Assembly: GCF_003324165.1 (NCBI RefSeq)
Contig: NW_025407823.1
Location: 496,001-560,000 of the forward strand
Source of the DNA: Naegleria lovaniensis
Lineage: Eukaryota; Heterolobosea; Eutetramitea; Acrasida; Naegleriidae
Direction: 5' to 3'
DNA: 64,000 nt
Shown: positions 57,929 through 61,202 of the stretch, piece after piece
How the letters are laid out: the number at the start of each line of letters is the position of its first letter
Numbering within the stretch: position 1 is the stretch's first letter
Program-made: the position numbers and the translations under genes
The notes under the pieces: generated by a model
What the model was told of the DNA's origin: nothing
What the model saw: the letters and a program-made list of their open reading frames with translations, nothing else
The model's database searches: none

Positions 57929-59402
57929 TTACTTCTTTCTGAGCTCTTCTAGCTTGGAGTCTCGTCTTCTAATGATATCTTTGGAAGGCTTCCAACTAGT
58001 TTCACTTAACAAAGAGTCCCATTTCTCAGTTAATTCCCTCTCTGTTATGTTCTTATTCCATAATAGTGTTTGAAATTCAATGTCTTGCCAAGGCGGAAGA
58101 TCACAACTACAAGCACACTTTGTTTTTTCTGAACTACTCTTCTCAGGATGACTCACTTCTTGATCAATTAAGTTGGCATCGATATCAAGCGTGTTGCAGC
58201 ACAAGGGATTCATGTTGCCACTCTTTTCCAACTTGTCCAAAAAACGCATGCCAGTAAGATACTCAACTTCTTTCAGAGAGACTGAATATTTGGTTAAATG
58301 ATCGAGCTTATCAATTGGTCTATTGGGTACAATAAATGCTTGAGCATAATATTGAGGTGATACTGCGTCTTGTTCGTTTGCTGTCTCTGTTTGTCTTTTC
58401 TCGGCAATAATTATTCTAAATAAGTGAGTTGGAACTGCTACATGGTTGTTACCAATGATCAAGTGTTTCACTTCCCCTTTTGGACCTTTGGGTGGTTTTC
58501 CTGTGGCATCTGGCTCTATCTTGTTTTGTTGCTCATACAGTGTTGGCATAAAGACAGGTCCTGCAATGACATGCACCGCATGAAAGCGGTCAGCTAGTGA
58601 TCTTGTAAATCTTTCCATTCTCAACCAATAATTAGCATTGTTGTCAAAGTCTTGAGGAACAATGTTATTAGCTAAAAGATGTGTTTCATTCTGGTTCGTT
58701 AATCAGCGGCTTGAAAAGAGTATGGATGTTTGAGCTTCAACTTACCATTGCCACTTGATCAAATCTTGTTAAATCACCACAGTTCACTAAATGACCTCTA
58801 GAATAGTTACTTCCAAAGTAATCAGTATTATCAGGATTAAAGCTTGATAATTGTTCAAAAATTGGGCTTTTCATAAACTTGGAGAATTTTCTATCTGATT
58901 TCTCAACATAATTCTCTTCGAATCTTGGTATCGACCAGCACACATACAGTGGAATTTTTAAGTTGCTATCTGTCACAGATAAAAAACGGGAAAATACGTT
59001 AAGTCGACCTACATGTGTTGGTAAGCCGAACTCATTAAATGTTTTAAAGAGTTCAAAGGTTTGATCTTGTTCCTTGGTAGGCTCTTCAACATGAATATTA
59101 AATTTTGGCCAACGATGATCATCTCTTTGTTCCTCTAAATAATGATAAATTTTTTCAGTCAATGACACTTCTCGTTTGGAGGATTCATTCTGTTGTGGTG
59201 ATGATGGTTGTTGTTGAACGTGTGAATTAATTTCTGGTTGAGTATTGACAGGTCCGATCAGAATATGTGAAGGACGAGAATTATCTTGTAGTAAATGCTT
59301 CATTCTTGATGGATCATGTGTGGTACCTCGTATGTATTGCGAGCCAATCCAAACACCAACAGCAACTGAAGTGGCATGAGCCAACACTCGTTTCAAGAAC
59401 AT
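57929..59402 (-). CDS. EXOG: EXOG-like mitochondrial DNA/RNA non-specific nuclease (beta-beta-alpha-metal)
   Basis: Two exons, 59402-58746 and 58690-57929; the 55-nt intron (donor GTAAGT) restores FDQVAMNETHLLANNIVPQ; 472 aa. The active-site motif reads SRGH in NYSRGHLVNCGDLTRF, the form found in EXOG rather than the DRGH of EndoG; the downstream NNIVPQDFDNN supplies the metal-binding Asn region, followed by the HVIAGPVFMP core. N-terminal residues 1-25 (MFLKRVLAHATSVAVGVWIG) look like a mitochondrial signal anchor. Role by family: 5'-3' exonuclease activity in mitochondrial DNA repair. It has a long insertion (~50-100) rich in Gln and Ser. Confidence 0.88.
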
Positions 59403-59519
59403 TTTTTTTCAATCTCAATTACCACGACCTTGTGATCACATGTGATTGGTCGAAACATTCTACTACTCAAAGAATGTGGTTCAGAAAATATATGGTGAAT
59501 GGTTAACACCCGCCAGATC

Positions 59520-60719
59520 ATGTTCATCAAAATTCCCTCATCTGTAAAAAGCCTTAACAAAAAAATGAGTCCGCAAGAGGAAATTACTACGCCTCCACAA
59601 ACTACAACTAGTAACACCAACATCACAGACGCGCCAGCGAGTACTACGGCGGTGGAATCAAAATATATATTATCTAATAGTGCAGACATGGAAGAAAAAA
59701 AGGAAGAACCTCTGCCAATACATCACAACATTGAATTGCAGGTAGCTTTTTCATCACTTGAATTATCGACCCTCAAACCTGAGGATGTCTCGGAAATCAA
59801 GACAAAACCTTCAAATTTGAATGAAACAGGTTTCAAAGAAAAGAAGAAATGCAAATCTCCCGTTAATGTAAAAGAGGCCATAATGATCCTTTCATGGCTG
59901 GCTGCAATTGCATTCTGCATTTGGTATATATACTTCTCTGCCATGAACTTTCACGAAGCACAAAACTCTCCCACAACCTCTCTTTCATTACATGAAACGA
60001 TACCTCTCCAATTTCCATCTGTTACAGTTTGTAATTGGAATGCTGTTGATCCTAGTTGTGATTATTGTAATATCACGTTGCTGCAAGCCACTACTCCCAA
60101 CAACATTCTTGGAATAATTGAAACTGTGGAGCTTCCACACGAATATTTTGAACTCGAGCAAAACGGTCAATACTTTAAGTGCTATGGATTCAATTATAAC
60201 CAAAACAAACCACTGGTTGCCAATTACACAGGATATGGTGGTTCCATAAGCTTGTTCTTTAAAGCTCCTCCTGTTCCAGACGACCGTGATGCCAGATTCG
60301 GGCTTCAAGTAACTTTTCATGAAATCGGAACGATTCCAAACGTGTTTAGTGAAACGAATTTCGCAACCTCAGGAGTAGACAACTTTTATACCTTAACGAA
60401 ATTTGTAACAAAGAGATTGAAACCAAGAGCAGAAAATCCGAGTGGTATTGAGCTACGATGGGACTCAAAGCTGTCAACAGTGCAGCTCACCCAAAACGAC
60501 CCATCTGTAGTGGTTATATCATTTTCGTATGACTCTCTGAATGAAAATCAAATTACTGAAATACTTACAAGTTCGTTGGAAGGCTTGTTTGGAGAAATTG
60601 CGGGAATTGTTGGAATTTTTATGGGAATTGATGTCTTAAAAGTGCTGAGAGGAGTTCTGGAAATTCCATACGCAGTTCATGCTAAATCTTTGAGGGCCAT
60701 TTGGGAAAACTTCAATTAA
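59520..60719 (+). CDS. DEG/ENaC-type (amiloride-sensitive channel family) ion channel, compact
   Basis: 399 aa from the ATG at 59520 (MSPQ at 59565 is an alternative), intronless. Two transmembrane helices frame an extracellular domain: TM1 at ~120-142 (AIMILSWLAAIAFCIWYIYF) and TM2 near the C-terminus. Just after TM1, IPLQFPSVTVCNWNA equals the family hallmark FPAVTICN. TM2 with its lead-in, LEGLFGEIAGIVGIFMGIDV and LKVLRGVLE, follows the pattern 'LL-x-E-I-G-G-x-x-G-L-F-x-G-x-S-[IV]-L'. The selectivity-filter triplet, usually G-x-S (GAS), is GID here. The ectodomain is only ~210 residues against ~370 in ASICs and has few cysteines. Expected activity: homotrimeric cation channel in the plasma or organelle membrane. 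It is divergent from the EXOG-like gene, 117 bp between start codons. Confidence 0.8.
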   Translation: MFIKIPSSVKSLNKKMSPQEEITTPPQTTTSNTNITDAPASTTAVESKYILSNSADMEEKKEEPLPIHHNIELQVAFSSLELSTLKPEDVSEIKTKPSNLNETGFKEKKKCKSPVNVKEAIMILSWLAAIAFCIWYIYFSAMNFHEAQNSPTTSLSLHETIPLQFPSVTVCNWNAVDPSCDYCNITLLQATTPNNILGIIETVELPHEYFELEQNGQYFKCYGFNYNQNKPLVANYTGYGGSISLFFKAPPVPDDRDARFGLQVTFHEIGTIPNVFSETNFATSGVDNFYTLTKFVTKRLKPRAENPSGIELRWDSKLSTVQLTQNDPSVVVISFSYDSLNENQITEILTSSLEGLFGEIAGIVGIFMGIDVLKVLRGVLEIPYAVHAKSLRAIWENFN

Positions 60720-60833: not shown

Positions 60834-61202
60834 CTAATCATAAAAGAGATGTTTGAAACTATTTTCTGCTAAATTAATAAACTCATTAAAAACATTCTTG
60901 TCAAAAACCTGGCTTGATGGAATTTTGTGGACATAGTTGGCTCGGATAGCGAATGACCCATCTCCACCTTCCACTTGTCCTCGAACCATCACTAATTCAT
61001 CGCTGCTGGCTACAAAAATACTGTTCAAGTAAACTGTGATCATTGACGAGTCGCTTGCTAGTACAGCAAAAGTGTCCCCATTAACTTCAGAGGCACAATT
61101 TCCGATGAGAGTTACATCCTTTCCGATGTAGTTTGGGATGGTACTGCCATTCACGTAGGGATGAGAGAGGAGTTGATGTTGTTGAACAGGTTCTGCGTTC
61201 AT
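60834..61202 (-). CDS. RPA3: Replication protein A 14-kDa subunit
   Basis: 122 aa, intronless, the usual size. Single OB fold: VNGSTIPNYIGKDVTLIGNC, DSSMITVYLNS, ELVMVRGQVEG, and a C-terminal amphipathic helix (VFNEFINLAENSFKHLFYD) that would enter the RPA trimer core. The match in order and spacing to RPA14 is good, though overall identity is low as is normal for this subunit. Role: trimerisation of the single-stranded-DNA-binding RPA complex. Its stop is 114 bp from that of the convergent channel gene. Confidence 0.78.
   Translation of the reverse strand: MNAEPVQQHQLLSHPYVNGSTIPNYIGKDVTLIGNCASEVNGDTFAVLASDSSMITVYLNSIFVASSDELVMVRGQVEGGDGSFAIRANYVHKIPSSQVFDKNVFNEFINLAENSFKHLFYD

Follow-up and report, generated by a model that had tools for sequence, protein, structure and literature searches.

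A compact gene of the DEG/ENaC superfamily

The window analysed here, a stretch of 64,000 nucleotides from Naegleria lovaniensis (contig NW_025407823.1, positions 496,001 to 560,000), contains at 59499-60719 on the forward strand an intronless open reading frame (ORF) of 406 amino acids. We consider it quite probable that this ORF is a real nuclear gene for a two-transmembrane subunit of the DEG/ENaC channel superfamily, one that is reduced to a first transmembrane segment (TM1), palm, beta-ball and second transmembrane segment (TM2), has three paralogues in the same genome and would form a pore that is not Na+-selective. As a family match the gene is ordinary; it is unusual in its host and in its pore chemistry. 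The preliminary description of this DNA had started the gene at 59520, where there is indeed a methionine in frame, but this codon is internal, the ORF opening at 59499; the candidate true starts are 59499, 59520 and 59565, the last of these allowed by the N-termini of the paralogues.

The profile search that the preliminary description had proposed was carried out against Pfam, and the protein matched ASC (PF00858, the amiloride-sensitive channel family) with E = 1.3e-14 and 54.6 bits, well above the curated cut-off of 23.6, bearing out the claim of a DEG/ENaC-superfamily gene in a protist. ASC was the sole Pfam match of the protein at E up to 10, and the reversed protein gave no ASC match, only a single weak match to an unrelated family, below that family's cut-off. 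Scores with the NCBIfam models fell below threshold for both ENaC (TIGR00859; 27.3 bits, cut-off 428) and degenerin (TIGR00867; 10.7 bits, cut-off 598.45), and so we read these profile scores as placing the protein in the superfamily but in neither the ENaC nor the degenerin subfamily. No match to Pfam P2X_receptor was found in the protein (E up to 10) or in the genome (E up to 1), which was searched over 30,690,286 bases in 97 contigs. Judged by its sequence, we hold firmly that the protein belongs to the family as a divergent, compact branch.

A search of the single sequence against the sequences of solved structures agreed with this placement, with DEG/ENaC members at the top, all of them weak (ASIC5, E = 0.0018; BRTNaC1; ASIC1; ENaC gamma; FaNaC), and Semaphorin-4D (E = 0.038) and the proton-activated chloride channel PAC (E = 0.86) below them. 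A four-row profile performed slightly better (best E = 0.00021). When residues 110-267 were searched alone, Semaphorin-4D came first (0.0064) and ASIC5 second (0.019); the Semaphorin-4D matches of this TM1-to-palm piece and of the full-length protein were discarded as chance, along with further weak PDB hits. Of 14 control genomes, one, that of Thermotoga maritima, scored above the cut-off of the ASC profile search, which may be chance.

Domain layout and a shortened ectodomain

In the genome search, the window gene matched the ASC model (455 positions) at 22-79, 168-267 and 394-446 only, corresponding to TM1 with strand beta-1, the palm/beta-ball and TM2. Left unmatched were the intervals 80-167 and 268-393 of the model, where ASIC1 has its finger and its thumb/knuckle. 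The protein has two hydropathy peaks, near residues 128 and 362-369, with ~205 residues between them, and we infer two transmembrane segments flanking one large extracellular domain. The features of the gene outside the pore are as follows:

59499..60719, forward strand: whole ORF, compact DEG/ENaC-superfamily channel subunit (ORF list, Pfam ASC match)
59499..59861, forward strand: N-terminal region (residues 1-121), polar, predicted cytosolic, no His-Gly motif (motif scan; putative topology)
59874..59948, forward strand: TM1 (~residues 126-150; hydropathy peak, ASC 22-79)
60012..60035, forward strand: strand beta-1, FPSVTVCN (residues 172-179; alignments)
60057..60068, forward strand: CxxC (Cys187, Cys190) within the shortened finger, each cysteine invariant in all four genomic copies
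60168..60428, forward strand: palm/beta-ball block (residues 224-310) with CYGFN (ASC 168-267; score above 1000 of 1000 shuffles)
60582..60662, forward strand: TM2 (~residues 362-388; ASC 394-446, hydropathy, alignments)

FPxVTxCN and GxxGxFxG are patterns of the DEG/ENaC superfamily, and both are present in the window protein, the former after TM1 (as the preliminary description had recognized) and the latter in TM2, though the phenylalanine of each varies among the paralogues. Relative to chicken ASIC1 (cASIC1; PDB 6ave, 4nyk and others), the protein shares TM1 and the FP-V-T-CN strand, the CY-FN strand and the palm/beta-ball, and in TM2 the pattern GLxGxIxGxxGxFxG, whereas the finger, thumb and knuckle regions of cASIC1 are short or missing. 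Local alignments to cASIC1 span 12 residues after TM1, ~51 residues within the palm/beta-ball, and a stretch of 48 that leads up to TM2 and continues into it. Three segments, picked after the alignment had been viewed, were each scored against the matching cASIC1 segment and compared with 1000 shuffles; their scores of 44, 47 and 80 were above all 1000 shuffles in each case (maxima 40, 41 and 54), the first two margins being small and the first resting on 12 residues (LQFPSVTVCNWN).

The ectodomain is estimated from hydropathy and alignment at ~205 amino acids, compared to ~355 in cASIC1, and so it is compact as proposed, albeit nearer 58% than half of the ASIC length. It contains only four cysteines (178, 187, 190 and 228), as against 15 in the same part of cASIC1, in line with the few cysteines reported initially. 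Cys178 and Cys228 align to Cys94 and Cys195 of cASIC1, respectively, which form a disulfide in that channel; a total of four leaves no equivalent for the thumb cysteines. Thus, neither the thumb and finger that form the acidic pocket of the ASIC subfamily nor the thumb cysteines were found (ASC 80-167 and 268-393 unmatched, four cysteines). With thumb and acidic pocket absent, the channel, presumably a trimer in the plasma or vacuole membrane, would be gated unlike ASIC1.

Compact members of the superfamily are known from solved structures. Centipede PDPNaC1 (PDB 9jf7, 421 amino acids) is, like the window protein, short and lacks the His-Gly (HG) motif and the knuckle (PMC12714832). BRTNaC1 (PDB 8ymr, 431 amino acids) is likewise compact; its TM2 ranks with the top PDB matches and carries GIC instead of GAS.

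Paralogues in the genome

Three further copies of the gene were found on separate contigs, C45, C64 and C75, with 44%, 49% and 48% identity to the window protein, respectively. The C64 and C75 copies encode 353 amino acids each after splicing, with three GT-AG introns each, and the C45 copy has one intron just before the Gly-Ile-Asp (GID) triplet of TM2. Four copies on separate contigs, three of them with introns, support the view of a real nuclear gene. As proteins, all four matched ASC (limit E 10; single E-values were obtained for the window protein only). One of these proteins also matched RHH_3 (E = 0.15), which was ignored.

Between C64 and C75, 16 of the 1062 coding bases are different, nine in synonymous and seven in changed codons, and since these two copies are near-identical, the four copies amount to three distinct ones. 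Of their 15 differing codons, 14 fall between codons 187 and 247; their 5' flanks are alike for more than 950 bases, save one 14-base insertion and two substitutions, and their 3' flanks diverge ~164 bases past the stop. The pair suggests a recent segmental duplication, gene conversion or haplotigs. The C45 copy lies at the first bases of its contig, whose end truncates it at 320 residues, just past GID; the remainder of its last exon is absent from that contig.

Searching the genome with the C45 protein yielded no further copy at E < 0.1; a weak match at C9:374668-374793 (E = 0.116) contains one stop and was left out of the count. Four copies is a lower bound, as such searches score only the best candidates.

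Pore residues and ion selectivity

Pore positions were numbered from Asp433 of ASIC1, which we take as 0', and were read from the gap-free TM2 alignment up to residue 384 and extended by hand beyond it. Accordingly, Glu366 is 0', Gly372 6', Ile373 7', Gly376-Ile377-Asp378 10'-12', Lys381 15', Arg384 18' and Leu387 21'. A pairwise alignment of 66 columns was confined to TM2 and the preceding strand (probability 56%, E = 0.00011). MAFFT was judged to misplace the beta-ball/thumb boundary relative to cASIC1, and the ungapped TM2 alignments were used instead. The pore features are as follows:

60594..60596, forward strand: Glu366, 0' (Asp433 in cASIC1; TM2 alignment), invariant in all four copies
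60624..60632, forward strand: Gly-Ile-Asp (376-378) at the GAS position, 10'-12' (ungapped alignments), invariant in all four copies
60639..60641, forward strand: Lys381, 15' (Thr448 in cASIC1; TM2 alignment), invariant in all four copies
60648..60650, forward strand: Arg384, 18' (Glu451 in cASIC1, the residue that gives ASIC1a its Na+ selectivity; alignments), Arg in the three copies reaching it

GID aligns without a gap to the Gly-Ala-Ser of cASIC1 and is fixed in the four genomic copies, which confirms the initial observation that the filter triplet carries an Asp at its third place. The G/SxS typical of the superfamily at 10'-12' is therefore found in none of the four copies, yet accepted members also depart from it (GIC in BRTNaC1, GAT in CeDEGT-1d), and so this pattern was not treated as exclusive. 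The HG motif that typically precedes TM1, absent also in PDPNaC1 and CeDEGT-1d, was not found in any of the four copies. At 18', where cASIC1 has Glu and where the printed BRTNaC1 and ASIC5 chains also carry Glu opposite Arg384, all three copies that extend so far have Arg, two of them being near-identical.

These substitutions bear on selectivity. In ASIC1a, Na+ selectivity is given by Glu 18', whose charge is essential, with even E18'Q and E18'D abolishing it, while the GAS belt shows no Na+ preference (PMC5449180). As this Glu confers Na+ selectivity in ASIC1a and is Arg here, a Na+-selective pore appears unlikely. In cASIC1, Ser445 (12') is part of a hydrogen bond with the HG re-entrant loop (PMC7308080), and the loss of both partners in all four copies fits a lower pore that has been rebuilt, as we infer. 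Since position 18' is Arg and the HG loop is missing, the protein would rather form a weakly selective leak or a volume- or ligand-gated channel that is not Na+-selective. Poor Na+ selectivity is also seen in two members without HG, CeDEGT-1d (see below) and PDPNaC1, the latter with a modest Na+ preference (PMC12714832). The preliminary description, then, was right about Asp 12' but missed the stronger change of Glu 18' to Arg, the Lys at 15' and the absent HG motif.

Its further claim, that an Asp in the filter should alter selectivity, meets a divided literature. Among ENaC residues, S12' alone yields variants with altered K+/Na+ selectivity, and Caenorhabditis elegans CeDEGT-1d, which carries GAT and lacks the HG motif, favours K+ and Cs+ over Na+ (PMC8536179). 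DEGT-1 thus resembles the window protein in its non-Ser 12' and missing HG, though with Thr rather than Asp at 12', the likeness being drawn from its published description. Together, the CeDEGT-1d and ENaC S12' data would strengthen both the point about 12' and the view of a pore that is not Na+-selective. On the other side stand the ASIC1a belt and its S12'A variant, which left permeability and selectivity unchanged when present in one or two of three subunits (PMC5449180). A ring of Asp at 12' may also bind divalent ions: in ENaC alpha, the S12'D variant is inhibited by Cd2+ at sub-millimolar concentrations (PMC8536179).

Several observations weigh against our reading. PDPNaC1 keeps GAS though HG is absent, and its GAS mutants leave selectivity unchanged (PMC12714832), making the belt sequence a poor predictor of function. 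PMC8536179 doubts that the substituted 12' residue is itself the Cd2+ site, which makes divalent binding at Asp378 no more than plausible. MAFFT would place a one-residue gap after 384, putting Glu388 near 21'; residue 388 is Gln in the C64 and C75 copies. A six-frame ASC search of the genome found only the window gene and the C45 copy, and not those on C64 and C75, whose exons are split. Finally, an AlphaFold2 model of residues 112-406 from the single sequence was unusable (mean pLDDT 36, pTM 0.21).

Alternative explanations

The most probable alternative, which we nonetheless regard as unlikely, is a Na+-selective, amiloride-blocked channel like animal ENaC and ASIC, in which other parts of the protein make up for the Asp, Lys and Arg changes. 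The ASC match, the Gly at 6' kept in all four copies and the tolerance of ASIC1a to S12'A are consistent with it, but in ASIC1a even E18'Q and E18'D abolish selectivity, while all three readable copies have Arg at 18', and the shift of K+/Na+ selectivity by S12' variants of ENaC argues in the same direction.

Less probable still is a relative of PAC/TMEM206, an anion-conducting channel of similar size with two transmembrane segments per subunit. PAC is a homotrimer whose anion selectivity is set by a single TM2 lysine, Lys319 (PMC8299559), and the window protein also has basic residues in lower TM2; PAC chains do appear in the structure searches, with E = 0.013 at best (four-row profile) and 0.86 and 0.37 with single sequences, but they rank below the DEG/ENaC chains. 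Moreover, the TM2 block is DEG/ENaC-like, the protein had no Pfam TMEM206 match at E up to 10 and hence lacks membership by profile, and searching the genome with TMEM206 yielded two matches below the cut-off, both elsewhere (best E = 0.00969, with stops). Given the shared topology and the PAC lysine, anion permeation would be worth testing, but is not likely.

We give almost no credence to a chance or compositional match, a pseudogene or animal contamination: the lack of introns in the window gene, unlike its paralogues, is as expected of a retrocopy, but the 406-codon frame is open, the reversed sequence had no ASC match, paralogues 44-49% identical carry the same motifs, and the gene lies on a 1.08 Mb contig of a Naegleria-like genome. 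The AdoHcyase encoded on contig C51 agrees with that of PDB 5v96, from Naegleria fowleri, at 429 of 441 aligned residues (the first of them may fall at an exon edge), and so the genome is probably that of a Naegleria near to, yet distinct from, that strain.

Relatives elsewhere and significance

DEG/ENaC channels, best known from animals, are described as absent from most unicellular eukaryotes (PMC9822975) and from all the parasites examined in PMC3681921. Homologues are reported in heterokonts and in the filasterean relative Tunicaraptor, with a candidate in one alveolate (PMC10507113). Those of Tunicaraptor unikontum and Cafeteria roenbergensis likewise have single-celled hosts, as likened by description, but belong to lineages other than Heterolobosea. 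Titles and abstract openings of the papers listed in literature searches reported no DEG/ENaC channel of Naegleria, most subscription journals and the sequence databases being outside this scope, and the window gene may already be labelled ASC in sequence databases. Scans that started from two short peptide patterns, and could therefore miss distant relatives, gave 226 matches in viral contigs and 51 in prokaryote genome contigs with no confirmed relative in either, and a phage collection gave no match.

PMC10507113 leaves open whether the family is old and was lost many times or was instead distributed by lateral transfer, a question for which a four-copy, intron-bearing amoeba family offers a remote branch. 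The gene thus helps to ask how old the DEG/ENaC family is and how its members choose their ions, its pore offering a test by nature of two proposals from the literature, namely that Na+ selectivity stems from Glu 18' and that Ser 12' and the HG loop keep one another in place. A bolder proposal, which we put forward as improbable, is that the gene encodes a charge-inverted DEG/ENaC pore, with carboxylates ringing the central belt and, beneath it, basic rings where ASIC1a has its carboxylates; such a pore might be anion-permeable or divalent-selective, and its minimal TM1-palm-beta-ball-TM2 core might stand near an ancestral form of DEG/ENaC and PAC that predates the split of animals and Discoba.

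Neighbouring genes

Two adjoining ORFs on the reverse strand at 57929-59402 match two parts of a DNA/RNA non-specific endonuclease (PF01223) and probably constitute one intron-bearing gene. On the other side, a short reverse-strand ORF at 60834-61202, matching Replication factor A protein 3 (PF08661), adjoins the channel gene.
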